DNA of 22,862 bases from a virus: IMG/VR virus record IMGVR_UViG_3300020457_001453, positions 1 to 22,862 of that record. One strand, written 5' to 3'. Under the pieces are notes generated by a model. The model was given only the letters and a program-made list of their open reading frames with translations, had not been told where the DNA came from and did no database searches. The position numbers and the translations under genes are program-made. This document shows, in pieces, positions 2,968 to 22,657 of this stretch; within the stretch, counting starts at the first letter, position 1; every line of letters starts with the position of its first letter.

Positions 2968-2971
2968 AGAC

Positions 2972-3389: not shown

Positions 3390-3407
3390 GCCAGTTATAT
3401 TAACATA

Positions 3408-6822: not shown

Positions 6823-7500
6823 ATGGAAAACTCAGTCACTCCAATGAAGATCTTTCTCGATACAGCCGATACCGAGATAATCAATAAGCACTTTGCCACT
6901 GGACTTATTGATGGCGTAACAACAAATCCTACACTAATCCGTAAAAGTGGAAGAGATCCTGAAGATGTTTATCAGGAACTAATAGACTTAGGTCTAGGTG
7001 ATATAAGCATGGAAGTTGGTGGTAATGCTATACAAATGCTAGAAGAAGGACGTAGGTTATATGCTAAGTTCGGTCATCACTCTACTATCAAAGTACCATG
7101 CACACCTGAAGGTCTATGGGTATGTAAGGAATTACATAGAGATCATATCGATGTTAATGTTACTTTGATCTTTGATGCTGCACAAGCAATACTTGCTGCT
7201 AAAGCAGGTGCTAAGTATGTGTCTCCTTTCGTTGGTAGATTGGATGATAACTCTATTACTGGATTGGATTTGATCACAGATATCAAACACATATATACAG
7301 TACAGAGAGTACATGAGACCCAAATATTATCAGCATCAATCCGCTATGTGAATAGCGTTTCTCAATCATTTGCTAATGGTGCAGACATAGTTACTATGCC
7401 TCCAGCAGTTTTTGAAAAAATGTACAACCATGTATTGACTGATAAGGGTCTAGAAATCTTTAACAAAGATCTTGAAGTTATAGCAAATGAGAATCATTGA
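6823..7500 (+). CDS. talC: Transaldolase, short TalC/FSA type
   Basis: Transfers a dihydroxyacetone unit between sugar phosphates in the pentose phosphate pathway. Cyanophage TalC is known to push host carbon toward NADPH and pentoses for phage DNA synthesis during infection. It has the typical short MipB/TalC length: 225 residues from the ATG at 6823, or 218 from the ATG at 6844, which gives the classical MKIFLDTADTEII start. Counting from 6844, the catalytic Asp is residue 6 in FLDTA and the Schiff-base Lys is 83 in TIKVPCTPEG; GVTTNPTLI and NVTLIFDAAQA are family hallmarks. The promoter position (start near 6807) allows either start. First gene of the rightward operon. Confidence 0.95.
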   Translation: MENSVTPMKIFLDTADTEIINKHFATGLIDGVTTNPTLIRKSGRDPEDVYQELIDLGLGDISMEVGGNAIQMLEEGRRLYAKFGHHSTIKVPCTPEGLWVCKELHRDHIDVNVTLIFDAAQAILAAKAGAKYVSPFVGRLDDNSITGLDLITDIKHIYTVQRVHETQILSASIRYVNSVSQSFANGADIVTMPPAVFEKMYNHVLTDKGLEIFNKDLEVIANENH

Positions 7501-8011
7501 AAATGCAATCTCTGATGAGTTGATTGATGCATGTATTGAAGAAATTCAAGGCAAAAAGAAGCAAGATGTATGGGGTATAAGTAAGTGGAAGTGGGGAGTA
7601 CCACTTCAACAAGCATATCGTCTTACTGCTTGTCTATCTAATAAACCTGATGTACATAACTACAATCAGATTAGGAATGAGACAACTAGGCATTTTGAAA
7701 CACCAGCATCCAATATTAATTACCATGTCTGGTTACCTGGATCTGGTATAGGTTGGCATGATGATGATAATTATAGTTATGGTGCTACCTTATATCTAAA
7801 TGATTGGCCACCTGAGAAGGGAGCAATCTTTATGTGGAAGGAAAAATATACTGGGGAATTAAATTGTCTAAACCCCAAGAGAAATCTTCTTGTAATAAAT
7901 GATTGTGGTGAGGATCATGCAGTAAGTCCTGTATTAGCAGGTGAAGATTTGGGACTTAGAATGTCAATTCAAATGTTTTCAGTTAAGATAAATCCAGACT
8001 ATCATGAATGA
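7487..8011 (+). CDS. 2OG-Fe(II) oxygenase family protein
   Basis: A 174-residue protein predicted to be a 2-oxoglutarate and iron-dependent oxygenase. The iron ligands would be His91 and Asp92 or Asp93 (GIGWHDDDNYSYG), and His144 (EDHAVSP); Arg158 (LRMSIQMF) would bind 2-oxoglutarate. This is the compact double-stranded beta-helix type abundant in cyanophages, whose substrates are largely unknown. It overlaps talC by 14 bases, so the two are translated together. Hydroxylation of a protein, a sugar or a nucleic acid base are all open possibilities. Confidence 0.8.
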   Translation: MRIIENAISDELIDACIEEIQGKKKQDVWGISKWKWGVPLQQAYRLTACLSNKPDVHNYNQIRNETTRHFETPASNINYHVWLPGSGIGWHDDDNYSYGATLYLNDWPPEKGAIFMWKEKYTGELNCLNPKRNLLVINDCGEDHAVSPVLAGEDLGLRMSIQMFSVKINPDYHE

Positions 8012-8237
8012 GATAAAAATTAAATGTTTACTATGTGGTAAGATAATAGATCATGGAACTTGTGGCTGTCCTAATTCTGCAAGAATTACTAAGGATGGAT
8101 ACAGTGCTATGGATATGAATAAGGTGATAGAAGTAAAATCTAAACCTATCAAATATAAACCCAGTGATTCTGATATAGCTTTCCAAGAAAGCCGTAGCAG
8201 AAGGAAGGTACGTAAACTTGACTTTGAAGTACGTTGA
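8004..8237 (+). CDS. Small zinc-ribbon-like protein (77 aa)
   Basis: An N-terminal CLLCGKIIDHGTCGC (Cys8, 11, 20, 22) can bind one zinc, followed by a basic tail (QESRSRRKVRKLDFEVR). A nucleic acid or protein-binding role is possible but not shown. It overlaps the oxygenase before it by eight bases and the one after it by 20 bases. Confidence 0.6.
   Translation: MNEIKIKCLLCGKIIDHGTCGCPNSARITKDGYSAMDMNKVIEVKSKPIKYKPSDSDIAFQESRSRRKVRKLDFEVR
8201..8208 (+). promoter_or_regulatory. Ribosome binding site deciding a TTG start
   Basis: AAGGAAGG nine bases before the TTG at 8218. It supports TTG as the initiation codon of the next gene, which has no suitable ATG before its conserved part. Confidence 0.5.
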
Positions 8238-8760
8238 ATCAATCCATATCGGTACTGATTGGACTGATGATTATGAATCTATTTGCAATAAACTTGTTAC
8301 TCAACATAAGTGGAGTCACAAGAGATATAAGTCTGGGAAATATGTATTTGATATTGCTCCGAATAATATAAGATATTTTCAACCATTATTTGATAGAGTT
8401 TACCATGAGGTAAAGGGGTTATATCCTCGTGCAGATATACCAGAGAAGTTTGCTTCTGCAATATGGGCATACGTATCTAATAAAGACAGGAGTGTTACCT
8501 TCCTTCACAATCATATGAAGGAGAAAATTCAGAGAGATATATCCACTGTTTACTATCTTAAGAAGCCAGAAGGTAGTGGTGATATAATGTTTTTAGTTGA
8601 CGGTGAAAAGGTTATACATACACCAGAGGAAGGAGATCTATTAGTATTTCCAGCCACTATGTACCACGCTCCAATGCCAACAGAGTGTGATGAATATCGT
8701 ATTGCTATTAACATAAACGTTATTACTAATAACGATTATTCAAACTTCTTGACACGGTAA
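8218..8760 (+). CDS. 2OG-Fe(II) oxygenase-like protein (TTG start)
   Basis: A 180-residue protein initiated at TTG, supported by AAGGAAGG upstream. The likely iron site is His97 and/or His99 (TFLHNHMKE) with His150 (ATMYHAPMP), and Arg161 (EYRIAININ) for 2-oxoglutarate. The strands WAYVSN, STVYYLKKPEGSGDIMF and GDLLVFPATMYHAP follow the order of the phage 2OG oxygenase family with a divergent first motif (H-x-H or H-x-N instead of H-x-D), so activity is less certain than for the gene at 7487. Confidence 0.65.
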   Translation: MTLKYVESIHIGTDWTDDYESICNKLVTQHKWSHKRYKSGKYVFDIAPNNIRYFQPLFDRVYHEVKGLYPRADIPEKFASAIWAYVSNKDRSVTFLHNHMKEKIQRDISTVYYLKKPEGSGDIMFLVDGEKVIHTPEEGDLLVFPATMYHAPMPTECDEYRIAININVITNNDYSNFLTR

Positions 8761-9027
8761 GTGGAGTATTCTATAATAACGACGTACTCTAAGAAGACCA
8801 TGACACGAGGTGTATTCCTGTCTAAATTCAAACTTGATTCAAAAACTTTAGTCGATGCAGTAGAAGAGAAAATTGATCTGGAGTATGATCATCCAGATCT
8901 ATACCAAAAGGTTTACCAATTCTACAAAGACCAAGATGTTTATTTCTATGATGATAAAGATAAGGACTATAACATCATATTAGAAAGTTTAGAATATGAT
9001 TTACTTGATTCGGAGTTACTAAGGTGA
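8761..9027 (+). CDS. Small acidic unknown protein (GTG start)
   Basis: The frame starts with GTG directly after the previous TAA, giving 88 residues beginning MEYSIITTYSKKTMTRG; an ATG at 8800 would give 75. The protein is rich in Asp, Tyr and Phe (YFYDDKDKDYN), with no membrane segment or known domain. It ends in a GTGA overlap with the isomerase gene. Function is unknown. Confidence 0.5.
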   Translation: MEYSIITTYSKKTMTRGVFLSKFKLDSKTLVDAVEEKIDLEYDHPDLYQKVYQFYKDQDVYFYDDKDKDYNIILESLEYDLLDSELLR

Positions 9028-9407
9028 GTTTTCAGAGAGATCGTCCATGGGGATGGTACAAATGCATATGTCGATCAGAGACCTATGCAGTGAAAAAAAT
9101 TTATGTTGCACCTAACCAAAGGTTGTCACTACAATATCATCAACACAGGACTGAGGACTGGGTGGTAGTTGAAGGTAGTGGTACTATTACCCAAGGTAAT
9201 CTTGATTCACCTGCTAAAGTGGGTGATACATTTTTTATTGGTATAGAACAACGTCACCGTTTAGCAGGTGGTCCTGATGGTATTGTTATCATTGAGGTTC
9301 AACGTGGTATATGTAAAGAAGATGATATTATAAGACTCGAAGATGATTATGGTAGAGTCCAAACCCGTAGTCTTTATGCCTCCCTCAATGAGTACGGAAC
9401 AGAATGA
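9024..9407 (+). CDS. Type II phosphomannose isomerase (cupin)
   Basis: Predicted to interconvert fructose-6-phosphate and mannose-6-phosphate. The 127 residues correspond to the isomerase domain found at the end of ManC/AlgA-type bifunctional enzymes, here standing alone without the GDP-mannose pyrophosphorylase part. Visible are RPWGWYK (7-13), the cupin metal site RLSLQYHQHRTEDWVVVEG (His39, His41, Glu44), GDTFFIGIEQRHRL (His78) and the closing EVQRG and IIRLEDDYGR. The GTG start lies in a GTGA overlap with the previous stop, and the end overlaps the next gene by ATGA. With the phosphomannomutase at 1714 it would supply mannose-1-phosphate. Confidence 0.88.
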   Translation: MSFQRDRPWGWYKCICRSETYAVKKIYVAPNQRLSLQYHQHRTEDWVVVEGSGTITQGNLDSPAKVGDTFFIGIEQRHRLAGGPDGIVIIEVQRGICKEDDIIRLEDDYGRVQTRSLYASLNEYGTE

Positions 9408-10351
9408 CTTATATTGTTACAGGTGGAGCTGGTTTTATCGGTAGTAATTTTCTTCATTACTTGAAGAATGAGACTGAAATAGATGATCAAGTTATTGTTA
9501 TAGACAATCTATCTTATGCTGCTGACTTGGAGTATGTTCCCAAGAACAAGCAGTTTATTTTTGAGTGGTGTGATATCTCTAATGAGGATCATGTCACTTA
9601 TATTTTTGATAAGTATAAACCAAAAAAGGTTTTTCATTTTGCTGCTGAAAGTCATGTTGATAGATCTATAAAAAATTACAGACCGTTTCTAGAAACAAAT
9701 GTTGTTGGCACAATCAACCTACTTAATGCTAGTCTAAAGCATGAGGTTGAAAAGTTTCATCATGTTTCTACTGATGAGGTGTATGGATCCCTCGAATATG
9801 ATGACGTTGAATTATTTAAGGAGACTACTCCCTATGACCCAAGAAATCCCTACTCGGCAAGCAAAGCAGCGTCCGACTATTTTGTCAAAACATGGCACAA
9901 CACTTACGGTATACCTTACCTTATTACTAACTGTTCTAATAACTATGGTCCTCATCAACATGTAGAGAAGTTGATACCATTGGTTGTAAGTAACGCATTA
10001 CAGGATAAGGTAACATATATGCATCAAGGTGGTCATCAAGTAAGGGATTGGTTATATGTTTATGATCATTGTGCTGCTATCTGGGAACTAGAATGGCAGG
10101 GAATTATTAATAATCATTTCAATATAGGTGGTGGATGTGAGCTGAGGAATATAGATGTAACTAAGATGATATTATCATTGATGAAGAAACCATATACACT
10201 CATTGGTATTAACGATGAGCGTCCAGGTATTGATAAAAGATACGGTATGGACTATAATAAGATGACTCAGTGGACTACGTGGAAACCATTCACTGATTTT
10301 GATCTTGGATTGAGGGCAACTGTAACATGGTACCTAGACCGTTTAACATGA
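9404..10351 (+). CDS. dTDP-glucose 4,6-dehydratase-like (RmlB family)
   Basis: An NAD-dependent extended short-chain dehydrogenase making NDP-4-keto-6-deoxyglucose. The 315 residues show the Rossmann motif VTGGAGFIGSN (5-15), FAAESHVDRSI (79-89), STDEVYG with Thr123-Asp124-Glu125, YSASKAASD (Tyr150, Lys154), NCSNNYGPHQHVEKLIP and RDWLYVYDH. The Asp-Glu pair after Thr marks the dehydratase rather than an epimerase. The sequence order is that of RmlB, so a dTDP sugar is the first guess; a CDP sugar cannot be excluded because an RfbH-like enzyme follows two genes on. The product could be the substrate for that enzyme. Start and end are both ATGA overlaps. Confidence 0.9.
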   Translation: MTYIVTGGAGFIGSNFLHYLKNETEIDDQVIVIDNLSYAADLEYVPKNKQFIFEWCDISNEDHVTYIFDKYKPKKVFHFAAESHVDRSIKNYRPFLETNVVGTINLLNASLKHEVEKFHHVSTDEVYGSLEYDDVELFKETTPYDPRNPYSASKAASDYFVKTWHNTYGIPYLITNCSNNYGPHQHVEKLIPLVVSNALQDKVTYMHQGGHQVRDWLYVYDHCAAIWELEWQGIINNHFNIGGGCELRNIDVTKMILSLMKKPYTLIGINDERPGIDKRYGMDYNKMTQWTTWKPFTDFDLGLRATVTWYLDRLT

Positions 10352-11163
10352 TCTCATTGTATGGAGCTGGATTTGTCGGTGGACATTTCGCTAAGATGTA
10401 CCATGAGTTTGTAGATGTACAAGGTAGGGATGAACGTAATCCTAAACATAAAGATATACTTTATTTCATATCAACTGTGGACAATTACAATGTCCATGAT
10501 AAAATAACACTTGACGTTGACACTAATTTACATGTCCTTTGCGAGGTTCTTGACCATTGTAGGTCAGAAGACATTACCTTCAACTTCATTTCCAGTTGGT
10601 TTGTCTATGGAAAAGGAGACACACCAGCATCAGAAACTTCACCATGCAACCCACAAGGGTTCTACTCAATCACAAAGTACTGTGCAGAAAATCTTATTAG
10701 GTCTTTTGCACAGACCACTGGGATGAAGTATAGGATCCTTAGACTATGTAATGTCTTGGGACCTGGAGATCATAAAGCAAACCGTAAAAAGAATGCTATA
10801 CAGTGGATGGTAAATGAATTGAAAGCAGATCGGGATGTGAAGTTATACGATAACGGATCTCATTGTCGTGATGTTATGCATGTTGATGATGTATCTCGTG
10901 CTATCTTTATGATCCTTGAAAAAGGACAACGGAATGAGATCTATAATATAGGATCAGGTAAACCAACTTCTGTTTCTGAGTTGATGTTATTAGCAAAACA
11001 ATACTCAGAATCAAAGGGTGAACTTTTGAACATGGATCCACCTGATTTCCATAAGAATGTTCAGACACAAAACTTCTGGATGGATGTTACTAAACTAAAA
11101 GAGTTGGGACATCAACAATTCCTAAACAATGAATACATTATCAGAGACTTATGTACAGCATAA
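10348..11163 (+). CDS. NAD-dependent sugar epimerase/reductase (SDR)
   Basis: A 271-residue extended SDR. I chose the ATG at 10348, which overlaps the RmlB-like stop as ATGA; an ATG at 10327 would add seven residues. Visible are the N-terminal cofactor motif LYGAGFVGGHF (4-14), a catalytic Ser in FISSWFVYG (80-88), YSITK (Tyr106, Lys110), RLCNVLGPGD and a substrate-side VMHVDDVSRA. The N-terminal domain is shorter than in typical epimerases. The gene lies between a 4,6-dehydratase and a 3-dehydratase, so a 4-keto reductase or epimerase of a deoxysugar is a likely role. Exact substrate is unknown. Confidence 0.8.
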   Translation: MISLYGAGFVGGHFAKMYHEFVDVQGRDERNPKHKDILYFISTVDNYNVHDKITLDVDTNLHVLCEVLDHCRSEDITFNFISSWFVYGKGDTPASETSPCNPQGFYSITKYCAENLIRSFAQTTGMKYRILRLCNVLGPGDHKANRKKNAIQWMVNELKADRDVKLYDNGSHCRDVMHVDDVSRAIFMILEKGQRNEIYNIGSGKPTSVSELMLLAKQYSESKGELLNMDPPDFHKNVQTQNFWMDVTKLKELGHQQFLNNEYIIRDLCTA

Positions 11164-12455
11164 AGGATCAAATAGGTTCTTTTATTATGGCTTTGGAATC
11201 GGAAGGGTATGATCTCTTTCCTTTCTTACCTAATAAAAATTGGAAACCAGGTGATCAGATATTATATTCTGGACCTTACTGGGATGATCAAGAACCGATA
11301 GCTGCTATGGCAGCATTACTTACTGGTAAGTGGTTACCTGCTGGTGAGAATGTAAATAAGTTTGAACGTGGATTTGGTAAGAGATTTGAGCATGACTATT
11401 CTGTCATGGTAAACAGTGGATCATCTGCTAATCTAGTGATGATTGCTGCACTGAAGAAGTACTTTGATTGGAAAGATGGTGATGAGATATTAGTATGTGC
11501 TTGTGGTTTTCCTACTACTATCAATCCTATTATTCAGAATGGATTGAAGCCAGTCTTTGTTGATATAGATTATAATGATTTGAATTGGAACCTTGATCAA
11601 TTAGAATCAAAGATAACAGATAGAACTGTTGCAGCATTTAGTTCACCCGTCCTTGGAAATCCCTATGACTTTGATAAGTTCCTCGACATTATTGATAGGC
11701 ATGGGTTGAAGTATATTGCTGACAACTGTGACTCCCTCGGTAGCAAGTGGAGAGGTGATCTTCTTACCAAACGTGCCGTCGCATCGTCTTGTTCTTTTTA
11801 TCCAGCTCATCATATTACTACTATCGAAGGAGGAATGGTCTCCTCTGACATCGAAGAGGTGGTTCAGATCGCTAGATCTTACGCCTGGTGGGGTCGTGGT
11901 TGCTACTGTGTAGGAGCCCAAAATAAATTGCCCAACGGTGTTTGTGGAACTAGATTTGACCGTTGGTTGGAGGGGTATGATAAGGATGTCGATCATAAGT
12001 ATGTCTTTGGAGTCCAAGGATACAATCTCAAGCCTGCCGATTTGCAGGGGGCGATTGGGTTGGTGCAACTGACTAAGCAAACTGAGATACATCACGTCCG
12101 TCGTCTCAACAAAAGTGCGATGACTCAAATCTTCTCTCAGATTCCTGGTTGCAGGGTTATCGAAGAGAAAGAACATGCTGAGACCTCATGGTTTGGGTGT
12201 CCTATTATCTATGAGGACGGTAAACACCACCTCGTAAAATACCTAGAGTCAAAAGGTATACAAACTAGAAACTATTTTGCTGGTAATATTTTGATGCACC
12301 CTGCATACAAACATATAGAACCAGCTTCTAACTATCCTGAAGCCTCAAAGGTGTTAGATAACGTATTCTTTGTAGGAACATCTCCCGTAATAACGATGCC
12401 TATGCTAGACTACATAGATGAGGTTGTTCAATCTTACATAAAGGAAATTAAATGA
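11151..12455 (+). CDS. RfbH/E1-type NDP-4-keto-6-deoxyhexose 3-dehydratase
   Basis: A member of the DegT/DnrJ/EryC1 fold, 434 residues. Where aminotransferases have a PLP-binding Lys it has SFYPAHHITTIEGG with His220, the hallmark of the PMP-dependent 3-dehydratases (E1/AscC/DdhC, RfbH, SpnQ) that remove the C3 hydroxyl to give 3,6-dideoxyhexoses. As I recall, E1 binds a [2Fe-2S] cluster by Cys193, 251, 253 and 261 (C-x57-C-x1-C-x7-C). Here Cys193, 251 and 253 are at the same positions, with the fourth at 265 (x11 instead of x7). Cluster and radical chemistry are therefore probably kept. These enzymes need electrons; no E3-type reductase is in the window, so host or phage ferredoxin may serve. 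It overlaps the SDR by 13 bases. Confidence 0.88.
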   Translation: MYSIKDQIGSFIMALESEGYDLFPFLPNKNWKPGDQILYSGPYWDDQEPIAAMAALLTGKWLPAGENVNKFERGFGKRFEHDYSVMVNSGSSANLVMIAALKKYFDWKDGDEILVCACGFPTTINPIIQNGLKPVFVDIDYNDLNWNLDQLESKITDRTVAAFSSPVLGNPYDFDKFLDIIDRHGLKYIADNCDSLGSKWRGDLLTKRAVASSCSFYPAHHITTIEGGMVSSDIEEVVQIARSYAWWGRGCYCVGAQNKLPNGVCGTRFDRWLEGYDKDVDHKYVFGVQGYNLKPADLQGAIGLVQLTKQTEIHHVRRLNKSAMTQIFSQIPGCRVIEEKEHAETSWFGCPIIYEDGKHHLVKYLESKGIQTRNYFAGNILMHPAYKHIEPASNYPEASKVLDNVFFVGTSPVITMPMLDYIDEVVQSYIKEIK

Positions 12456-13591
12456 GCAAAAAGACTGCATTAGTTTTAGGAGCAGGTGGATTCATCGGTT
12501 CTCATATGGTAAAGAGACTTAAGTCTGAAGGTTACTGGGTCAGAGGTGTTGATTTAAAGCATCCTGATTTTTCAGAGACAGAAGCAGATGAGTTTCTTAC
12601 AGGTGATCTAGCTGAAGCAGACTTCATGAAAAGAGTAATTGCTTTTAGAGGAGAGCAAGGAAATTTTTATGCTAGTGTTCCGTTTCAATATGAAACTCCT
12701 TTTGATGAGATCTATCAGTTCGCTGCTGACATGGGTGGTGCAGGGTTTATTTTCACAGGTGAAAATGATGCCGAAATAATGCACAACTCAGTGAGTATTA
12801 ATATAAACCTATTACGTGAACAACTTAAGATGAATGCTAGTTATCCACGTCTTCTGGTTCCCGTACCAGATAACGTTGGTAAGACAAAAATTTTCTACAG
12901 TTCATCTGCATGTATGTACCCAGAGTACAATCAACTTGATCCAAACAACCCCGACTGCCGTGAATCATCAGCCTATCCAGCCCAACCAGACTCCGAGTAC
13001 GGATGGGAAAAATTATTCTCCGAGAGGTTATATCTCACTTATAATCGTAATTATAACATTGATGTTAGGATCGCTCGTTACCATAACATCTTCGGACCAG
13101 AAGGAACCTGGCATGGAGGACGAGAAAAAGCTCCAGCAGCAATCTGTAGAAAGGTTGCCTATGCCGACCAATCCAATGGCGAAGTAGAAGTATGGGGTGA
13201 TGGTAAACATACTAGATCATTCCTTTACATTGATGAATGTATTGAAGCAACAAGAAGACTAATGGAATCAGACTTCTTAGGACCTATCAACATTGGTTCA
13301 GAAGAAATGGTTACTGTTGATGAACTTGTAGATACTGCTGCAAGAGTTGCTAAGAAAGACATTGTAAAGAAATATCTTGATGTTCCTCACACTGGTGTTC
13401 GTGGTAGAAATTCTAACAATGATCTCATTCGTGAGAAACTTGGTTGGGATTATGAACAGACACTTGAAGAAGGAATAAAAAAGACTTATAATTGGATCAT
13501 GGGACAGATCGCTAAAGAAATGTTCCCTGTTGAAGCTGATAAAGATATCACAGGTAAAAAGTATCTCGCCTATGGTAACTGCAACAAATGA
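12452..13591 (+). CDS. GDP-mannose 3,5-epimerase (plant GME-like)
   Basis: Predicted to convert GDP-D-mannose to GDP-L-galactose, and GDP-L-gulose as a side product. The 379 residues match plant GME in length and motifs: LGAGGFIGSHM (9-19), QFAADMGGAGFIFTG (89-103), FYSSSACMYPEYNQL (148-162), EYGWEKLFSE (Tyr183, Lys187), RYHNIFGPEGTWHGGREKAP and WGDGKHTRSFLYIDEC. Plant GME uses Cys145, Tyr174, Lys178 and Lys217; the matching residues here (Cys154, Tyr183, Lys187, Lys226) keep the same spacing. In plants this makes ascorbate and cell-wall L-galactose; in a phage a role in glycan building is likelier. The last 40 residues extend beyond the SDR core. Confidence 0.92.
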   Translation: MSKKTALVLGAGGFIGSHMVKRLKSEGYWVRGVDLKHPDFSETEADEFLTGDLAEADFMKRVIAFRGEQGNFYASVPFQYETPFDEIYQFAADMGGAGFIFTGENDAEIMHNSVSININLLREQLKMNASYPRLLVPVPDNVGKTKIFYSSSACMYPEYNQLDPNNPDCRESSAYPAQPDSEYGWEKLFSERLYLTYNRNYNIDVRIARYHNIFGPEGTWHGGREKAPAAICRKVAYADQSNGEVEVWGDGKHTRSFLYIDECIEATRRLMESDFLGPINIGSEEMVTVDELVDTAARVAKKDIVKKYLDVPHTGVRGRNSNNDLIREKLGWDYEQTLEEGIKKTYNWIMGQIAKEMFPVEADKDITGKKYLAYGNCNK

Positions 13592-14244
13592 ACACAACTT
13601 ATGATTATGAAAAGGATACCCTAAAGCATCCTTTCAGTGGACACACAAAAGTATTTCGTAATTACTCACAAGCATATCAAGACATGTTTGCCTTGTCTAT
13701 GTTGAAGGGTAAGAAGAAAGGTAAGTATGTAGAGGTTGGTGCTAATCATCCTCAATCAATGAGTAATACTTTTCTACTTGAGAGTACATTCGAGTGGCGA
13801 GGTTACTCAGTAGAGATTGAGAAGTCTATGTGCGAATTATTCAATGGTGATATGGCAAGACAGAACCATTGTTATGAATCAGATGGTAGGTACTTTGATT
13901 ATTTGAAAGCAATAGAAGGTGAGGGATGGAAGAATAGAGTTGACTATCTTTCATTAGATTGTGAACCACCCAATGTTACCTTTGAAATTCTAAAGAAGTA
14001 TCCTTTAGAAGATTACCCTGCATCTGTTATTACATTTGAACATGATGCATATAAAGATGGTCCTACTATCATGGATCACTCTCGTATATTTTTGAAGGAT
14101 AAAGGTTATCAATTAGTATGTTCTAATGTTTGTAATGGAGGAGCACCGTTTGAAGATTGGTGGGTTGATCCTCGTGTGGTAAATGAAAATATTTGGAAAC
14201 CATTTGAGTGTTCTAATAAGGAGGCACGGAGTATCTTTGTATGA
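13588..14244 (+). CDS. FkbM-type methyltransferase
   Basis: A 218-residue S-adenosylmethionine-dependent methyltransferase of the FkbM type. Visible are SQAYQDMFAL (27-36), the SAM-binding KYVEVGANHP (46-55), NTFLLE...WRGYSVEIE (60-78, with the ribose-binding acidic residue in EIE), SLDCEPPN and VITFEHDAYK. FkbM proteins usually O-methylate sugars or glycolipids, and the position between sugar-nucleotide genes and glycosyltransferases fits methylation of a glycan. ATGA overlaps at both ends. Confidence 0.8.
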   Translation: MNTTYDYEKDTLKHPFSGHTKVFRNYSQAYQDMFALSMLKGKKKGKYVEVGANHPQSMSNTFLLESTFEWRGYSVEIEKSMCELFNGDMARQNHCYESDGRYFDYLKAIEGEGWKNRVDYLSLDCEPPNVTFEILKKYPLEDYPASVITFEHDAYKDGPTIMDHSRIFLKDKGYQLVCSNVCNGGAPFEDWWVDPRVVNENIWKPFECSNKEARSIFV

Positions 14245-15011
14245 AGATATCTCATTGGTATGGTAGGTTGGGTAATAATATCCAACAGTGTGCTGTTGGA
14301 GTTATGGCAGCTTATAAGTTTGAAACTAACTTTGAAAGTATTGATCATGATATTATAAAAAAATTCTATTATCTTAATGGAGAAAGATATGATGAAAGTG
14401 AATCAAAATTCTTCTATTGGGAAGGACCATATCAGGAGGTCGATATACCATCGGACTTCATATACCGATCAATGCGAAAGACTTGCAAAGATTACATCTT
14501 TCCACAGCTCAGAGTTCCAAGAGTGGTTGTGGCTGACGACACTCTCGTTATTCATATTAGGAGTGGAGATGTCTTTGACAAAGGGGTATCTAACCCTAGT
14601 CAATATGCTCCTAATCCTTTGTATTTTTATACCACATTACTTGAGGGGTTCAATAAGGCGATTGTGGTCACGGAACCTGACTCCCATAATCCAGTGGTTC
14701 AAGAACTTAAGAGACATCCTAAGGTCACTGTTCAGTCTCTAAGTGTAGCAGAAGATTTTGCTACGTTATTAGCAGCAAAGCATCTAGCTAACTCAGGAGT
14801 AGGAACCTTTGCAGTTGCTGCTGCATTGTGTAGTCATAAGATAGAAAACTTTTACTGCTCTGATCTTGCAATAACAGAGCACTTGAATTATAATATGTTG
14901 GTTGGAACCGATGTTAAAGTAAACCTAATGGAACTACCTAATTGGATTCGACCTGGTGAGTGGAAAAATAGTGATGAGCAAAGGAGGATGATAATTGATT
15001 ACAAGATATAA
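14241..15011 (+). CDS. Fucosyltransferase-like glycosyltransferase
   Basis: A 256-residue protein with YGRLGNNIQQCA (7-18) near the N-terminus and VIHIRSGDVF (103-112, His105, Arg107, Asp110), the HxRxGD donor-binding motif shared by GT11 alpha-1,2-fucosyltransferases and protein O-fucosyltransferases. The later SGVGTFAVAAAL probably corresponds to the NSSFSWW region of GT11. It is shorter and more divergent than the clear GT11 at 19394. The donor would be a GDP-beta-L-hexose such as GDP-fucose or GDP-L-galactose; the acceptor is unknown. Confidence 0.7.
   Translation: MKISHWYGRLGNNIQQCAVGVMAAYKFETNFESIDHDIIKKFYYLNGERYDESESKFFYWEGPYQEVDIPSDFIYRSMRKTCKDYIFPQLRVPRVVVADDTLVIHIRSGDVFDKGVSNPSQYAPNPLYFYTTLLEGFNKAIVVTEPDSHNPVVQELKRHPKVTVQSLSVAEDFATLLAAKHLANSGVGTFAVAAALCSHKIENFYCSDLAITEHLNYNMLVGTDVKVNLMELPNWIRPGEWKNSDEQRRMIIDYKI
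14981..14987 (+). promoter_or_regulatory. Strong ribosome binding site deciding a TTG start
   Basis: AAGGAGG seven bases before the TTG at 14995. It is one of the best Shine-Dalgarno matches in the window and fixes the start of the next gene, whose frame has no early ATG. Confidence 0.6.
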
Positions 15012-15516
15012 ACTAAAGATTACTCATCAGAAACTAATAGAAAAGATATGTCACAAACTTCCTTACTATTTCTTTGAAGACTGTGCTTATGGTAACAATA
15101 AACATCCTCTAAGGAAGGATCTCCATCCTTACTTCAGTCATACTTTATTGAATGAGCAAGGTGAACAGTCTGAGAATTTTCGTAAGTTTCCTTGGAATGA
15201 TATTGGTAAGGTAATTGAAATGCCTGACAATCAAATGTTGAGGGCACATATGACATTACAATATCCCAGACCAGATGTATTTGGGGTACCTCACAATTCA
15301 CATATAGATCAACCTATAAGACCATCTATTGTTGCATTATATTATCCCAATGATGCTGATGGTGACACGTTTTTCTTTGACAATGAACAAAACATTATAC
15401 ATAGAGAAACACCTGAACGAGGAAAGATTATAGTCTTTGAGGGAATGCAATATCATTCCAGTTCATCACCATCAAAGAACGTAAGATTTACTCTCAATAT
15501 TAATTACAAACCATGA
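14995..15516 (+). CDS. 2OG-Fe(II) oxygenase family protein (TTG start)
   Basis: A 173-residue protein. The iron site is His103-x-Asp105 (NSHIDQPIRP) with His154 (MQYHSSSSP), and Arg164 (NVRFTLNIN) for 2-oxoglutarate; the strands ALYYPNDADGDTFFFD and GKIIVFEG lie between. The motif order is complete, so an active oxygenase is likely. It starts within the last 17 bases of the fucosyltransferase-like gene and overlaps the following GT17 gene by ATGA. Position inside the glycosyltransferase block suggests hydroxylation of a glycan or of a glycosylated protein, but this is inference. Confidence 0.82.
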   Translation: MITRYKLKITHQKLIEKICHKLPYYFFEDCAYGNNKHPLRKDLHPYFSHTLLNEQGEQSENFRKFPWNDIGKVIEMPDNQMLRAHMTLQYPRPDVFGVPHNSHIDQPIRPSIVALYYPNDADGDTFFFDNEQNIIHRETPERGKIIVFEGMQYHSSSSPSKNVRFTLNINYKP

Positions 15517-16370
15517 AAATTTTTGACGTATTCACTTTTTATAATGAGCTTGATCTTCTTGAACTGAGGATGAATATCCTAGGTGATGTGGTAGATCATT
15601 TTGTTATTAACGAAGCAAACATTACTTTCACAGGTAAGAAGAAACCACTTTACTTTGCAGAGAATAGAAAGCGTTTCAAGAAGTGGGAAGATAAAATAAT
15701 ATATCATCTAACTGAAGATGATAACCAGACTTACGAAGCATACTATGAGGGTGTACCTTATCATCGTAGTATGATAGAAGAGAACATAAAAGATTTACCA
15801 TTACATTATCAGAGAGCATGTTTCCATAAGGACTCAGCAATATATGGACTACTTGATCATGCTAAAGATGAGGATCTTATTCTGACTAGCGATGCAGATG
15901 AAATTGCTAATCCAGAATGTATAAAGATTCATAAGAAGTGGTTCAATCCAGACAATCATTATGTACTAACTGGTCCTTTATATTACTACTTCCTCAACGT
16001 ACAATGTGAAGAGCAGTGGATGGGTACAAGAGTCTGTAACTTCAAGACACTGAAGAGTATGAGTGTAGATAAGTTACGTCAGTCACATAAGAATGCATGG
16101 AAGATAGAGAATGCATCATGGCATTGGAGTTTCTTTGGTAATGCTGATACAGTAAGACAGAAGATGGATGCCTATGAACATCAGGAGAATAATAAAGACG
16201 AGTTTAGATCTAGTATGGAAGATCGTATTGAGAATAACTTAGATCCTTATGGTAGAGACTATCTCTATAAACCTATTGTAGTTCCTATTGATGAGACATT
16301 CCCCCAGTATATTAGAAGTCAGAAGAATAGGAAAATGAAAAAGTTCATCAAGCCTTATGAAACTGCTTAG
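15513..16370 (+). CDS. GT17-like glycosyltransferase
   Basis: A 285-residue protein with the typical start of GT17 (beta-1,4-mannosyl-glycoprotein N-acetylglucosaminyltransferase family): KIFDVFTFYNELDLLELRM, then VINEANITFTGKKKPLYF (31-48). The metal-binding motif is LTSDADEI (124-131), followed by YYYFLN and SWHWSFFG. GT17 enzymes add GlcNAc to mannose in eukaryotes, but bacterial and phage relatives have unknown specificity. No membrane segment, so it would act in the cytoplasm. Confidence 0.85.
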   Translation: MKIFDVFTFYNELDLLELRMNILGDVVDHFVINEANITFTGKKKPLYFAENRKRFKKWEDKIIYHLTEDDNQTYEAYYEGVPYHRSMIEENIKDLPLHYQRACFHKDSAIYGLLDHAKDEDLILTSDADEIANPECIKIHKKWFNPDNHYVLTGPLYYYFLNVQCEEQWMGTRVCNFKTLKSMSVDKLRQSHKNAWKIENASWHWSFFGNADTVRQKMDAYEHQENNKDEFRSSMEDRIENNLDPYGRDYLYKPIVVPIDETFPQYIRSQKNRKMKKFIKPYETA

Positions 16371-17271
16371 TGGACCAGCGATAGCAAATCATTGTGATTA
16401 TGATTTCGGAGATCAGGCAGGGTGTTTAGGTGGTGTACCCGATGCCTTCATGGAAGATGCAAATAATAAGAACAAAAATTTTATGAGTATGGTAAAGGGT
16501 CGTGAATGGATGACCCTATTCATTGATAATATACGTTTATATAAAAGACCTATAACATGTAATAACTATGATGATCAGATGAGAGTTGATAATATGATGA
16601 AGAGAGATAATCTACTCAAGTTATGTAAGTCATTACCTGATACTAAGTTTATAATATTTTGTAGTAATGAGGACACACCTATTACAGATGATATAAAAAT
16701 ACCAGATAATGTTAGAGCAATCTTCGCAGCAAATGCTGTAGGGTATAGTGGCAAACTATATCCATTTCCTTATGGTGTACAGAGAGTATTATATAAAGGT
16801 GATGTAAGACAGAAGCAACTTCATATCGCTATGCAAGAGGATTCTAAACCTAAGAAGTTATTGTATATCAATCATTCAGAACATACTAATCTAAGTGAAC
16901 GTGGAAACATAAGAGAACTGTTTAGTGGTAAATCATATGCTACGGTGAGTGAACGTGTATCTTATATTGAGTATGTCAATCAGATAAAGGAACATAAGTT
17001 TATGATATGTCCTGAAGGTAATGCTGTGGATTGCCATAGAAATTGGGAGGTACTATGTCTAAAGAGAGTACCTATTATGAAGAGGAATCCATACTTAGAA
17101 GAGGTTTATAAAGATTATCCTATACTATGGGTTGATGATTATGGTAAGATAAACAAGACGTTATTAGCAGGTCATGATGATTTGTTTATAAGGGCTAGAA
17201 ATTTAGACGATAATCTGCTAGACTTATATTCAGTAATGAATAGGGCAATTCGCTTTGCAAAAAATTCCTGA
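16357..17271 (+). CDS. Exostosin-like glycosyltransferase
   Basis: A 304-residue protein. The C-terminal half has SYIEYVNQIKEHKFMICPEG (202-221), VDCHRNWEVLCLKRVPIM and LEEVYKDYPILWVDDY, the nucleotide-sugar binding signature seen in exostosin-like proteins of bacteria and large viruses: a Ser/Cys-Pro-Glu-Gly loop, an acidic residue before HR, and a Glu in a conserved helix. The N-terminal half is variable and probably binds the acceptor. It overlaps the GT17 gene by 14 bases. Donor and acceptor are unknown. Confidence 0.72.
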   Translation: MKLLSGPAIANHCDYDFGDQAGCLGGVPDAFMEDANNKNKNFMSMVKGREWMTLFIDNIRLYKRPITCNNYDDQMRVDNMMKRDNLLKLCKSLPDTKFIIFCSNEDTPITDDIKIPDNVRAIFAANAVGYSGKLYPFPYGVQRVLYKGDVRQKQLHIAMQEDSKPKKLLYINHSEHTNLSERGNIRELFSGKSYATVSERVSYIEYVNQIKEHKFMICPEGNAVDCHRNWEVLCLKRVPIMKRNPYLEEVYKDYPILWVDDYGKINKTLLAGHDDLFIRARNLDDNLLDLYSVMNRAIRFAKNS

Positions 17272-17926
17272 CGTTACATTGTTGATGCTTGCTGATCTGG
17301 ATATTCCAGATGCTGTTCATGCTGTCAATAAATCCTGTGAAGATATACAATGGGGTGCTGCTAAGTTTCTTAGTAGTAAGGGAAGACCTAAAGGTTTGAA
17401 TCCCAATGTAGATTATGAAGAAGTATATCCTATTCAAAGTATCAATGACTTTAATTTTTATTGTATCTACAATCTAAGAAACCATGTTGAAACTTCTCAC
17501 TCCCTCCTCATCCACCCTGATGGTTATGTTATTCGCCCTTGGTTGTGGGACAATACTTGGCTTGAATACGACTATATCGGTGCACCATGGAGAGATGATC
17601 CCAAGGCATATCTCGATCCTTGGGGCAAGAATCAACGTGTCGGGAACGGAGGATTCTCTCTTAGGAGTAAGAAACTCCTCGACGTACCCAGTAAAGTCAC
17701 AGTCCCTTGGGAAGTAAATGTAGGAAATTTTTACAAGCATATGGATGCTGGACTATATAATGAAGACGGGAACATATGCTGCCACAACAGACACATCTTC
17801 GAGGAACAGGGATGTGTGTATGCTCCCGTCAGTGTGGCGGCTCGTTTCAGTAAAGAAGTAGAGTGTCCAGAACACGAAGGCATTGAGACCTTTGGTTTTC
17901 ATTATCATTTTCAAAGTATACGATGA
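17255..17926 (+). CDS. DUF5672-like putative glycosyltransferase (TTG start)
   Basis: A 223-residue protein. Initiation at TTG 17255 includes the family-like beginning KIPDVTLLMLADLD; an ATG at 17285 would cut it. Visible are HPDGYV (87-92), EYDYIGAPW (104-112) and VGNGGFSLRSKKLL (129-142), the signature of DUF5672 proteins, which occur in capsule and LPS loci and have a GT-A-like fold. An HEGIETFGFHYH motif closes the protein. The middle third (about 17480-17840) has more G+C and C-ending codons than the genes around it. It overlaps the previous gene by 17 bases and the next by ATGA. Confidence 0.78.
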   Translation: MQKIPDVTLLMLADLDIPDAVHAVNKSCEDIQWGAAKFLSSKGRPKGLNPNVDYEEVYPIQSINDFNFYCIYNLRNHVETSHSLLIHPDGYVIRPWLWDNTWLEYDYIGAPWRDDPKAYLDPWGKNQRVGNGGFSLRSKKLLDVPSKVTVPWEVNVGNFYKHMDAGLYNEDGNICCHNRHIFEEQGCVYAPVSVAARFSKEVECPEHEGIETFGFHYHFQSIR

Positions 17927-18711
17927 AGACAGCACATTATTATCCCCTATGGTGGAACCCTTGGGTTGATGATCCTCAACAATATGATAAGCAAGTCAGT
18001 ATTTCTATTGATAACTTAGCTTGCAACGAAGAAGCAGACTATAAGATATTATTTTTAGCAGAACCATATTCTATTTTACCTACAGTTACAGAGGGTGCTC
18101 TTCGGGGTGCAATGAAGTTTGATAAGATCTATACATTTACTCAAAAGATATTAGAACATTATCCACAAGCAGAATTATTTGAGTGGGGATCTAGTTGGTT
18201 AGATTTTACTGATCTAAAACTAATGAAAGGTAACAATGTTACTTTTGTCACCAGTAATAAGAACCAAACTGTTGGTCATAAAATGAGGTTGGAAATATAT
18301 GATCTATTGAAAGGTGTTGATGTTTCTAATGGATTACAATACTATAGTCATATATCTCCACCCTTTCATCAAAGAAGGAATGATTTCTTTGAGACTGCAA
18401 AGTTTCATATTGCTGTAGAAAATTCTAGTCAGATAAATTATTTTACTGAAAAGGTTATTGATTGCTTTGCATCTAAAACTATTCCAGTGTACTATGGATG
18501 TCCTAACCTAGGTGACTGGTTCAATATGGATGGTGTTATTCAGTTTGAAGATATTCATAATTTAGAATTGATATTGAAACATCTTGATGCTGATCAGTAT
18601 GAACGTAGGAGGAAAGCTGTAGAGGAAAACTATGAGACTGCTAAACTTTTCCATAGTAGTAATGATGTTGTTCCTAGATTGACTAAGAAGATAAGTGAGG
18701 TAGTCAAATGA
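17923..18711 (+). CDS. GT10-like alpha-1,3-fucosyltransferase
   Basis: A 262-residue protein with the GT10 C-terminal signature FHIAVENSSQINYFTEKVID (161-180) and TIPVYYGCPNLGDWF (186-200), which bind the GDP moiety of the donor. The N-terminal acceptor domain is short. The family transfers L-fucose to GlcNAc or related sugars, and some fucosyltransferases accept GDP-L-galactose. As no GDP-fucose synthesis gene is visible but a GDP-mannose 3,5-epimerase is, L-galactose is a reasonable alternative donor sugar. Confidence 0.88.
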   Translation: MKTAHYYPLWWNPWVDDPQQYDKQVSISIDNLACNEEADYKILFLAEPYSILPTVTEGALRGAMKFDKIYTFTQKILEHYPQAELFEWGSSWLDFTDLKLMKGNNVTFVTSNKNQTVGHKMRLEIYDLLKGVDVSNGLQYYSHISPPFHQRRNDFFETAKFHIAVENSSQINYFTEKVIDCFASKTIPVYYGCPNLGDWFNMDGVIQFEDIHNLELILKHLDADQYERRRKAVEENYETAKLFHSSNDVVPRLTKKISEVVK

Positions 18712-19397
18712 AAGTAAGTTATTGTATCCCTACTCATGATGGTAACATGAGATGTCAACAGTATTTGTTTGATATTTTTCATGCATTAGAACAACAAGAT
18801 GATAAGAATTTTAACGTTTGGATATCAGATCATAGTAAATCTGATAAGGTACTAAAAGTATGTCAGGAGTATGCAGATGTTTTTGAAATCAATTATGTTA
18901 AGAATACAAATAGCTTGGGCAACATTTCTGCTAATAGTAATCATGCATTACGCAACGCAGACGGGGATATCCTAAAGGTATTATTTTCTGATGACTTTAT
19001 TCTTACTAGAACATTAAATTCAGAATTACAAAAAGCATTTAGTAATGATGAAGTTAGTTGGGCAGTCACTGGGTTTGCTCATACATTAGATAATGGACGG
19101 ACACATTATAATCCTAAGGTACCTGTCTGGAATGATAGGTTATTAGAAGGTGTAAATACATTAAGTTCTCCTTCTATACTTGCTATTCGTAATGGTATTG
19201 GTGAGTATTTTGATGAAGATCTTACCATGCTTATGGATTGTGATATGTTCTATAGACTCTATAAGGATCATGGTAAACCTGCTGTATTGAAGGACTTTCA
19301 TATCTCTAACAGAGAACATCCTAATCAAACACAGAGACAACATGAAGATCTCTTACCTAAAGAGGTTGAATACTTGAAAAATAAACACAAATCATGA
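18708..19397 (+). CDS. GT2 family glycosyltransferase
   Basis: A 229-residue GT-A protein: VSYCIPTHDGN (3-13), WISDHSKSD (38-46, in place of the usual DDGS), GNISANSNHALRNADGD (71-87) and VLFSDDF (91-97, metal-binding acidic pair). DCDMFYRL later would orient the acceptor. No membrane segment. ATGA overlaps with both neighbours place it firmly in the operon. Confidence 0.85.
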   Translation: MKVSYCIPTHDGNMRCQQYLFDIFHALEQQDDKNFNVWISDHSKSDKVLKVCQEYADVFEINYVKNTNSLGNISANSNHALRNADGDILKVLFSDDFILTRTLNSELQKAFSNDEVSWAVTGFAHTLDNGRTHYNPKVPVWNDRLLEGVNTLSSPSILAIRNGIGEYFDEDLTMLMDCDMFYRLYKDHGKPAVLKDFHISNREHPNQTQRQHEDLLPKEVEYLKNKHKS

Positions 19398-20185
19398 CAA
19401 TAGGCTTCAATCATTTAGGGAGACATGGTAGACTAGGGAACCAGATGTTCCAGTATGCTGGACTTCGTGGTATCGCTGCACATCGTGGCTTTGATTTTGC
19501 AATTCCACCTAGTGATTTCAAAGATGAATGGAATGACCATCAACTCTTTGAAGCATTCAAGTTAGTTGGGTTGACAAACATCCAAGAAATACCTGGCCCG
19601 TATGTTCAAGAACAAACCTTTCACTTTGATAAGAAACTCTTTGATAATATGCCTGACGGACATAATGTCTATGGGTATCTACAAAGTACTAAATGGTTTG
19701 AACATATTGAGAAGGAAATTCGTGAGGATTTCCAGTTCAAAAATGACATACATAAACCATGTCATGATATGATATCTTCTGTAGAAGATCCCATAGCATT
19801 ACACGTTAGACGTGGCGATTACATAACTAATTGTGATAATCATCCACCATGTTCCAAGGACTATTATGACTCTGCTCTTTCTAGATTTGATAGTGATCGG
19901 TCTGTTATTGTTTTCTCCGATGATCCCAAGTGGTGTGGGGAAACTTTTCAAGAAGATCGTTTCTTGATATCTGAAGGTGGTGACAACCTTGCAGATTTAT
20001 GTATGATGTCTATGTGTACTGACTTTATCATTGCCAACTCCTCTTTCTCTTGGTGGGGATCTTGGCTAAGCGAAAATCCAAATAAAAAAATTGTCGCTCC
20101 ATCTAAATGGTTTGGCACGGGTTACACCAAGAACCATATCACAGCAGATTTGTATTGCGACAACTGGGAGGTTATTAATGACTAA
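19394..20185 (+). CDS. GT11 alpha-1,2-fucosyltransferase
   Basis: A 263-residue protein with all GT11 motifs: GRHGRLGNQMFQYA (9-22), ALHVRRGDYI (135-144) and FIIANSSFSWWGSWLS (211-226). The family links L-fucose alpha-1,2 to galactose. It is close to normal length. In this operon it stands with a GT10 and a second HxRxGD protein, giving three putative users of a GDP-L-hexose. Confidence 0.92.
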   Translation: MTIGFNHLGRHGRLGNQMFQYAGLRGIAAHRGFDFAIPPSDFKDEWNDHQLFEAFKLVGLTNIQEIPGPYVQEQTFHFDKKLFDNMPDGHNVYGYLQSTKWFEHIEKEIREDFQFKNDIHKPCHDMISSVEDPIALHVRRGDYITNCDNHPPCSKDYYDSALSRFDSDRSVIVFSDDPKWCGETFQEDRFLISEGGDNLADLCMMSMCTDFIIANSSFSWWGSWLSENPNKKIVAPSKWFGTGYTKNHITADLYCDNWEVIND

Positions 20186-21143
20186 CACTATTGTTCAAGA
20201 AGGAGTAGAGATTCCTGATCTTGGAATGTATGAAGATTTACAGATTCAACCTTTGAATTCTTGGGATCTTACTAAAACTACTTTTATTATTCCATTGAGG
20301 ATTGAAAGTAGAGATAGGATGAGGAACATTGTATGTACATTAGTATATCTGTTACGTAACTTTGATACTCAGATAATAATCAAGGAGCATGACATGGAGT
20401 CTGTCTTCTTGAAGCAGGTTGTTCCTATTCTTGATGATTGTGTACCTCCAATCAAGATGCACAACATACATCATATCTTTGAACAGTCTGAAGATGTAGT
20501 GTTCCATAGAACAAGACTACTCAATGACATGTTGATGTTGGTGAAGACACCTGTTGTGTCAGTATATGATTGTGATGTCATGCTCCCAATGAATACTTAT
20601 ATTCAAGCACAGAATGTTATTCTAAAGGGATATGATAACCCTGCAACTCCAGATGCAGCACCTGAACCTATCAAATGTGTTTATCCATATGGGTATGGTG
20701 ATTACCAGTGGCAACTTAGATGTGATGATAATGATATTACTAGATTTATAAATTCAAATTTCAATTTCAATGCTTTCCAAGGTAAAGGAACAGTTTACGA
20801 TGCCAAGTTTGGATTCGTTCAGTTCTTTGATACTAAACATTATCTAAAGCATGGTGCAGAGAATGAAGGGTTTGTATCATATGGTTATGAAGATGATGAA
20901 AGATATAATAGATTCAATACTATAGGTGGTGTACTAAGAATCAATGAACCTATCTTCCACTTAGAACATAAGAGAACACCTAACTCATGGTTCAACAATC
21001 CTCATATAGAATCTAACAGAGCATTGTGGGAGAAGCTAAGGACTAAGAGTAAGGAAGGTTTCATTGAATATTATAAAAATCCTGAGTACCTAAAGGTACG
21101 TGGGGTTGTTGATGGTGAGCTTCCAGATGACGGACAGGAATAA
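20178..21143 (+). CDS. Glycosyltransferase, galactosyltransferase-like (GT2/GT7 type)
   Basis: A 321-residue protein. The ATG at 20178, with GGGAGG at 20168-20173, is preferred over an in-frame ATG at 20091 that lies inside the GT11 gene. Visible are FIIPLRIESRDRMRN (36-50), the DxD-type SVYDCDVML (128-136) and GFVSYGYEDDERYNRF (231-246), which resembles the WGWGxEDD acceptor/metal motif of beta-1,4-galactosyltransferases (Glyco_transf_7C). It ends in HLEHKR, a likely metal-binding His region. Confidence 0.82.
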   Translation: MTNTIVQEGVEIPDLGMYEDLQIQPLNSWDLTKTTFIIPLRIESRDRMRNIVCTLVYLLRNFDTQIIIKEHDMESVFLKQVVPILDDCVPPIKMHNIHHIFEQSEDVVFHRTRLLNDMLMLVKTPVVSVYDCDVMLPMNTYIQAQNVILKGYDNPATPDAAPEPIKCVYPYGYGDYQWQLRCDDNDITRFINSNFNFNAFQGKGTVYDAKFGFVQFFDTKHYLKHGAENEGFVSYGYEDDERYNRFNTIGGVLRINEPIFHLEHKRTPNSWFNNPHIESNRALWEKLRTKSKEGFIEYYKNPEYLKVRGVVDGELPDDGQE

Positions 21144-21948
21144 ATCTCTTTATAAGTTAGAAGGGTTCCCTAATGTTCTCTGGATAAATCTTGACAGGGT
21201 TCCAGAGAGAAAGAAATATATGGAGGAGCAATTCTCCTACTGGGGTATAGATAAACACCATAGAATTTCTGGTGTTGATGGAGATGAGTACGAAGAATAT
21301 CTAAAGGGATCTGTTCCTCATAATATGAATAAAGGTGAGATAGCATGTGTTATGTCACATCTAAATGCTTTGAAGTATTTTGTTGAGGAGACAGACCTTG
21401 ATGAGATAATGATCATGGAAGATGATGTAGATCTATCTACAGTAAAGTATTGGCCATTTACATGGAAGGAAGTTCGTAAGCGTGTTCCAATAAATTTTGA
21501 TTGTTTACAGTTGACTATTATAAATCCTAATGGTATAACTTTAAAACTACATCATAGATTTATCAATGACTTTTCTGCTGCTTGTTATCTTATTACTCGT
21601 CATCATGCAACTAAGTGCCTCAGGTTACATAGGAGGAAAGGACAATGGAAACTCGACCAAAACATCAGACCAAGAGCAGTCTCGGAAGACTTGATACTTG
21701 ATAGTGGTAAGAGTTATTCAACACCACTGTTCAACTATAGATTAGACATGGGTTCTGCTATACATGAAGAACATATAGATATATTTCACAAAGGAAGTAA
21801 CAACGCTCTCAAAGATTTTTGGGAACGTGAAGCCATCGACATTCCACTTGAACAAATTATGGAATTAGATGAATACTGTGGTAGAATACCACCACAGGTT
21901 TATATCAACCAAGCACTGAAACAAAATGACGGAACAGCAGACACCTAA
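21127..21948 (+). CDS. GT25 family glycosyltransferase (LPS type)
   Basis: A 273-residue protein. I chose the ATG at 21127, since the earlier GTG at 21100 adds a stretch with no family likeness. Motifs are the GT25 start WINLDRVPERKKYMEEQF (19-36), HRISGVDGDE, GEIACVMSHLNALK (70-83) and IMEDDVDL (96-103, metal site). GT25 includes LPS beta-galactosyltransferases of the LgtB/LpsA group and collagen galactosyltransferases. It overlaps the previous gene by 17 bases and the next by 23. Confidence 0.88.
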   Translation: MTDRNKSLYKLEGFPNVLWINLDRVPERKKYMEEQFSYWGIDKHHRISGVDGDEYEEYLKGSVPHNMNKGEIACVMSHLNALKYFVEETDLDEIMIMEDDVDLSTVKYWPFTWKEVRKRVPINFDCLQLTIINPNGITLKLHHRFINDFSAACYLITRHHATKCLRLHRRKGQWKLDQNIRPRAVSEDLILDSGKSYSTPLFNYRLDMGSAIHEEHIDIFHKGSNNALKDFWEREAIDIPLEQIMELDEYCGRIPPQVYINQALKQNDGTADT

Positions 21949-22657
21949 GTATGAAGGCATACAATTTTATGATCACATTGGTGTACTAGATAATTTTGCT
22001 ACCAATGAATTTTGTGATTCTCTTATAGATCTATTTGAATTCTGGTATACTAAGAAGTACTTTAAGAATGAACGATCTGATCAAAATAAAGTTACATCTA
22101 TAGATGGTCATGATTTTACGTTAGATCATTTCAATGATGGTCAATCACAGTTTCCTCAAGGTGGAATGGGTAGAAAGGATCATCAATTATATCTTGAGAT
22201 CTGTGACTGTACTATGACGGCAGAAGTTAATAAGGTTATTGGTTTAGCATTTGAACAGTATGTAAAAGAGTATAAAGGATTGGTGTCTGATGCAGATCCA
22301 GTATCATCATGGACAGTCAAGCTACAAAGAACTGATCCTGGTGGTGGGTATCATGTATGGCATTGTGAAAATGGTAACTTCTTATATCGTGACAGGGTTC
22401 TTACATGGATGATATATCTAAATGATATTCCACTTGAATCTGGTGGTGGTACTGACTTCTATTATCAGAAGAGAACATTTCATCCTAAGAAAGGTACTGT
22501 AGTTCTTTGGCCAGCAGCATATACTCACATGCATCGTGGAGCATTTCTAACAGGAGAACAGTCTAAGTACATTGCAACTGGTTGGTTTATAAGAGAACCT
22601 GGTAACGTAACTGAAAAGGAAATTAGTGACAAGAGACAGATGAAATTAGAGGAATGA
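21926..22657 (+). CDS. 2OG-Fe(II) oxygenase, prolyl-hydroxylase-like
   Basis: A 243-residue protein. The core is TDPGGGYHVWHCENG (136-150, His146-x-Glu148 with Glu in place of the more usual Asp), VLTWMIYLNDIPLESGGGTD (158-177) and VVLWPAAYTHMHRGAF (192-207, distal His201 or His203), with Lys214 possibly binding 2-oxoglutarate. This is the layout of P4H-like phage oxygenases. Of the four in the window it is the longest. It ends in an ATGA overlap with the last, partial gene. Confidence 0.8.
   Translation: MTEQQTPKYEGIQFYDHIGVLDNFATNEFCDSLIDLFEFWYTKKYFKNERSDQNKVTSIDGHDFTLDHFNDGQSQFPQGGMGRKDHQLYLEICDCTMTAEVNKVIGLAFEQYVKEYKGLVSDADPVSSWTVKLQRTDPGGGYHVWHCENGNFLYRDRVLTWMIYLNDIPLESGGGTDFYYQKRTFHPKKGTVVLWPAAYTHMHRGAFLTGEQSKYIATGWFIREPGNVTEKEISDKRQMKLEE

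Follow-up and report, generated by a model that had tools for sequence, protein, structure and literature searches.

We analysed a viral DNA fragment of 22,862 bases (IMG/VR record IMGVR_UViG_3300020457_001453, hereafter the window) and found that one of its genes encodes a relative of E1 (AscC) of Yersinia and RfbH (DdhC) of Salmonella, the CDP-4-keto-6-deoxyglucose 3-dehydrases. The protein belongs to a clade of its own, marked by an eleven-residue spacing before the last of four conserved Cys (x11, as against x7 in E1/RfbH), and is likely to be a PMP- and [2Fe-2S]-dependent E1-type nucleotide-sugar 3-dehydratase in a dTDP route, with electrons from ferredoxin and a partner SDR acting at C4.

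The window most likely comes from a T4-like cyanophage, since its PurN is an 80% match to Prochlorococcus phages P-SSM5 and P-SSM2 and megablast returns pieces of P-RSM6 and viruses from marine single cells. The E1-like gene (Table 1) lies in the order talC-cupin-RmlB-SDR-E1-SDR-glycosyltransferases, which is conserved throughout close relatives, and shows the mark of purifying selection in pairwise comparisons with three viral homologues (dN/dS of roughly 0.11-0.15). Genes resembling 2OG-Fe(II) oxygenases are also found among the sugar genes of the window (7487-8760, 14995-15516 and 21926-22657) and perhaps modify the same glycan; 14995-15516 has a weak likeness to FlmC and 8218-8760 is oxygenase-like by Pfam, the others by sequence appearance only.

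Table 1 Features of the E1-like gene and its surroundings in the window
Feature	Position	Strand	Basis
E1/RfbH-like 3-dehydratase, x11 clade, 434 aa, ATG start	11151..12455	+	PDB 3bcx, NCBIfam RfbH, tree, fold match
Cys193 codon, predicted first Fe-S ligand	11727..11729	+	translation; invariant in alignments
His220 codon, replaces PLP Lys	11808..11810	+	translation; invariant in alignments
Cys251-x-Cys253 codons, predicted Fe-S ligands	11901..11909	+	translation; invariant in alignments
x11 loop and Cys265, clade marker, 4 residues longer than in E1/RfbH	11910..11945	+	
Compact SDR, 278 aa, partner of E1-like gene, probable 4-ketoreductase	10327..11163	+	
RmlB, dTDP-glucose 4,6-dehydratase	9404..10351	+	TIGR01181 370.6 bits vs cut-off 365.1
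Second SDR (nucleotide-sugar epimerase/reductase)	12452..13591	+	kept 3' of E1-like gene in marine cyanophage operon, 77/81 loci
Cupin, mannose-6-phosphate isomerase C-terminal type	9024..9407	+	PF01050 87.3 bits; upstream of RmlB, conserved
Methyltransferase-like, glycosyltransferase-like and 2OG-Fe(II) oxygenase-like genes, same glycan cluster	13588..22657	+	gene context

The window protein aligns with E1 at the active site and at four Cys

Translation of the gene places Cys at 193, 251, 253 and 265 (spacings x57, x1 and x11) and His, not Lys, at 220. A phmmer search of the PDB gave Yersinia E1 as the best match (3bcx, E = 1.6e-66) and ColD as the second (2gms, 6e-55). In the alignment to E1, His220 and the four Cys are in register with a four-residue insertion preceding the last of them; because Cys265 pairs with the fourth E1 Cys across this gap, x11 in place of x7 is the correct description. 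The initial annotation, which had reported a His where the PLP Lys would stand, three Cys at E1 spacing and a displaced fourth, is thus borne out, and residues, alignment and tree support its prediction of an E1-type 3-dehydrase with an Fe-S Cys set.

Identity to E1/RfbH is about 32-35%. The window protein matches PF01041, the Pfam model of the superfamily; on the NCBIfam RfbH equivalog (NF011936) it scores 339 bits, under the cut-off of 423; among the x11 members tested on this model only the deepest (L095) exceeds it, at 443.6. The AlphaFold model has a mean pLDDT of 90 and finds its best fold match in E1 (VIA Z 50.4, rmsd 2.5-2.6 over 404-406 residues), matches to aminotransferases and ColD having Z of 45.8 and below. 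A loop at residues 245 to 290 or so, which contains Cys251, Cys253 and Cys265, is modelled at low pLDDT (10-residue means 48-73), so that the model speaks neither for nor against a site formed by the four Cys, and the four-residue insertion could alter or abolish cluster binding.

This loop bears on a reading in which the protein performs ColD-like chemistry, a PLP-dependent dehydration without electrons, its Cys set being structural or binding another metal. ColD, the GDP-4-keto-6-deoxymannose 3-dehydratase, has the same fold and the same replacement of Lys by His, and the low confidence of the modelled Cys loop also counts in favour of this reading. However, ColD has no such Cys set and requires no electrons, whereas the four Cys are invariant throughout the x11 clade; the ColD-like proteins of phages, which include cyanophages S-CAM7 and ACG-2014f, have a Cys at the 193 position and none of the other three, and they form a separate clade whose genes lie beside those for Gmd and fucose synthase. 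We regard ColD-like chemistry as very improbable and favour the E1-type enzyme.

The x11 spacing marks a single clade

The pattern C-x57-C-x-C-x11-C together with the His was found in 84 of the 87 sequences of a first set, the exceptions being the x7 protein RfbH of Salmonella and two phage proteins of the ColD-like kind, in which the last three Cys are missing. All five residues are identical in the 84 viral x11 proteins of this set and in the 80 proteins of another viral set, more distant and drawn from at least 585 relatives (164/164 in total), and they do not vary across 40 aligned sequences from viruses and bacteria, which rules out a chance match of the Cys. Among bacterial genome loci nine show the x11 spacing and the remaining 71 the x7 spacing; Salmonella RfbH and L108 look like x3 but prove to be x7, their loop containing one additional Cys.

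In a tree built after removal of residues 251-265, the columns of the trait itself, the x11 proteins form one clade (support 100/99) that is sister to an x7 RfbH clade (100/96). ColD falls outside both (100/97), and five Lys aminotransferases form a separate clade farther out. The x11 spacing is therefore a clade marker and no local oddity. The phylogeny was proposed in the initial annotation as a check against an aminotransferase identity; the window protein groups with RfbH/E1 and no aminotransferase placement was seen. This position and the His at 220 rule out a misread Lys aminotransferase of the DegT/DnrJ/EryC1/StrS kind.

Two other bacterial proteins are of note. An RfbH-like protein of Rhizobacter (L097, 8001-9242) has the x11 loop with DWGR and a LYPSHH active site; its place in the tree is uncertain (87/46), and it is possibly an intermediate between the x11 and x7 clades. 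A distant DegT-type protein of Brevinematales (L152, 4664-5875) has the active site FYIAHN and a Cys-rich loop (MCDCVVCTRSQGTC) and may be another Fe-S enzyme of the same fold.

Gene neighbourhoods point to a dTDP-linked substrate

The window protein has the fold, His220, the four Cys in register and an adjoining SDR gene in common with E1/RfbH; it differs in the loop spacing, in having WWGR rather than DWGR, in belonging to a clade of its own and in the gene partners of that clade. Around x7 RfbH genes (n=71), RfbG, the CDP-glucose 4,6-dehydratase, was present in 49 loci and RfbF in 47. Neither gene was found near an x11 gene in any of 9 bacterial, 80 wider viral and 81 close viral loci (0/170), and in four large phage records, longer relatives of the window, nothing scored over the NCBIfam cut-off for either CDP-glucose 4,6-dehydratase or glucose-1-phosphate cytidylyltransferase. 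The absence of a CDP-glucose 4,6-dehydratase that had been reported for the window thus holds in these relatives too.

The x11 loci carry RmlB instead, and some of them also RmlA. Among the 81 close viral loci RmlB occurs in 69, and short contigs account for many of the others; RmlA occurs in 33 of the 80 wider viral loci, mostly with overlapping genes in the order RmlB-RmlA-E1-SDR. Three of four RmlA proteins score above the NCBIfam equivalog cut-off of 360.65 (422-431) and the fourth just below it (345); both RmlB proteins tested from the wider viral loci exceed theirs (396 and 444 vs 365.1). One such four-gene operon (L269) adjoins genes for a phage DNA polymerase, UvsX and a DnaB-like helicase, and two further contigs carry phage endolysins, so these are genuine phage operons. 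In bacteria, RmlA and RmlB lie beside the SDR-E1 pair in two Bacteriovoracales (L091, L096) and a Polyangiaceae genome (L092). One Nitrosomonadaceae genome has both types, an x7 gene next to RfbF/RfbG and an x11 gene on a different contig. Two Prochlorococcus single-cell genomes with x11 contain RmlA and RmlB over the cut-off and no match above it for either CDP-glucose gene; because these genomes are incomplete, such absences are weaker than the presences. The contrast between CDP and Rml genes recurs in different groups of phages and in several phyla of bacteria, in loci that are related by descent, so that the counts are not independent events.

Several of these observations bear on whether the enzyme acts on CDP-4-keto-6-deoxyglucose, as E1 does, with the host supplying CDP-glucose. 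E1 is the nearest characterised relative, and the S-H68 copy is annotated in GenBank as CDP-4-dehydro-6-deoxy-D-glucose 3-dehydratase. The 170 loci without an adjoining CDP-glucose gene, the Prochlorococcus genomes and the operons that join RmlA/RmlB to x11 all argue against a CDP-linked substrate, which we consider improbable. The x11 enzyme very probably works on dTDP-linked sugars, as judged from these neighbours. A dTDP-linked route had been proposed from the RmlB-like gene upstream; its product clears the RmlB cut-off, and the neighbourhood comparison strengthens the proposal.

Electron supply

E1 takes its electrons from the E3 reductase, whereas SpnQ, the dTDP-linked 3-dehydrase of spinosyn biosynthesis, takes them from ferredoxin or flavodoxin with their reductases (PMC8987622). 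An NAD_binding_1 domain (E3/FNR type) was found in none of 18 phage records, in searches whose controls gave matches, and the earlier statement that no dedicated reductase is present therefore extends to these records, which differ in this from the E1/RfbH systems. A [2Fe-2S] ferredoxin is encoded in 6 of 16 records with an x11 E1 (G005, G006, G007, G008, S-B43 and S-H68, the last so annotated in its record) and in none of 20 other, wider x11 viral records; it was found in the cyanophage branch only. Since ferredoxin genes are common in cyanophages generally, this distribution is weak evidence of a partnership. The x11-bearing Prochlorococcus genomes have one NAD_binding_1 domain each, presumably that of FNR. 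By analogy with SpnQ, ferredoxin is the likely donor in cyanobacteria; outside them, a host ferredoxin would have to serve.

The likening of the enzyme to SpnQ in the initial annotation stands for function, in that a dTDP substrate and ferredoxin instead of E3 are predicted for the x11 enzyme and known for SpnQ (PMC8987622), but not for kinship. The actinobacterial proteins near RmlA/RmlB that served as stand-ins for SpnQ (e.g. L139) have the x7 spacing and fall within the RfbH clade, separate from x11, and the tree gives no support to a close relationship.

The partner SDR and a proposed pathway

The start of the E1-like gene is overlapped by 13 bases by the gene for the compact SDR, a homologue of which is present in 78/81 close viral, 8/9 bacterial x11 and 50/80 wider viral loci. 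The SDR keeps the YxxxK motif (YSITK) and lacks the Asp-Glu pair of 4,6-dehydratases (SSWFVYG vs STDEVYG in RmlB); in compactness it matches the CDP-paratose synthase of Salmonella, an enzyme that holds a similar place beside RfbH. Because of these motifs, its compactness and its place beside the E1-like gene, it is probably a C4 ketoreductase, an epimerase being the possible alternative.

In the pathway that we propose, host RmlA would make dTDP-glucose and phage RmlB would convert it to dTDP-4-keto-6-deoxyglucose. By analogy with E1 and SpnQ biochemistry, the x11 enzyme would hold this sugar via PMP, His220 would take a proton and the C3 hydroxyl would depart, while two electrons would arrive singly via a cluster at Cys 193/251/253/265 from a ferredoxin of host or phage origin, which photosystem I or FNR would recharge. 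The product would be dTDP-4-keto-3,6-dideoxyglucose. The gene context suggests that the partner SDR would then reduce C4 and that, in the course of infection, downstream glycosyltransferases would place the dideoxy sugar on a surface glycan. A variant with prior C5 epimerisation, leading to an L-sugar of the ascarylose type, would fit S-H68, in which a gene annotated as RmlC sits between RmlB and SDR, and two wider viral loci with an RmlC homologue; RmlC is absent from the window and from most x11 loci, and we judge this variant unlikely.

A broader reading extends the proposed dTDP pathway: the x11 enzymes would be a separate, mainly viral, dTDP-specific Fe-S 3-dehydratase with an origin apart from SpnQ, and some phages would encode a complete RmlA-RmlB-E1-SDR pathway from glucose-1-phosphate to dTDP-3,6-dideoxyhexose, run on light-reduced ferredoxin in cyanophages. 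We put the chances of this reading at about even. 3,6-Dideoxyhexoses are surface sugars recognised by many phages and antibodies, and the presence of an operon for making them in viruses suggests that phages remodel the host surface or decorate their own proteins. In cyanophages the pathway, if it operates as proposed, would couple the making of surface glycans to the flow of electrons in photosynthesis. How E1-type enzymes run on plain ferredoxin as against an E3 reductase, and what sets CDP versus dTDP specificity, are further questions for which the x11 clade is a natural test case.

Distribution in viruses and hosts

Close relatives of the window protein are encoded on 130 viral contigs and at least 585 wider viral relatives were confirmed. 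The enzyme had been called unexpected in a phage, a view that does not survive these numbers, the GenBank naming of the S-H68 copy or the listing of ascC/ddhC/rfbH among marine viral metabolic genes (PMC10653327); a phage oddity or single acquisition is ruled out by the wide spread. In the part of the literature covered by our search, we found no paper describing the four-gene phage operon, the x11 proteins as a clade or their dTDP context, and no viral paper naming KEGG K12452.

In Prochlorococcus AG-347-J21 the SDR-E1 pair is chromosomal, adjoining argF, ftsH, ribD, a precorrin methyltransferase gene and NAD kinase. Its E1 nests within the viral clade (100/100 with L035), which points to gene transfer between phages and their host, with passage into the host as the simplest case.

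Other sugar genes were seen in phage records. A 642 kb uncultured phage (L084, LR756502) encodes both a ColD-like 3-dehydratase (2380-3549) and an x11 E1-like enzyme (9938-11239); the ColD-like protein is without C251/C253/C265 and its gene lies beside a fucose-synthase-like gene. S-CAM7 (L086, 6028-9086) and ACG-2014f (L087, 5993-9110) carry a Gmd/fucose-synthase/ColD-like trio separate from the x11 gene, perhaps a GDP-linked route to a colitose-like dideoxy sugar. The record OR851175 ('Salmonella phage S.Kent 1-2-1', L085), which served solely as an RfbH reference, matches a Salmonella stretch of rfbG, rfbH and the next gene and is probably host DNA inside a phage assembly.
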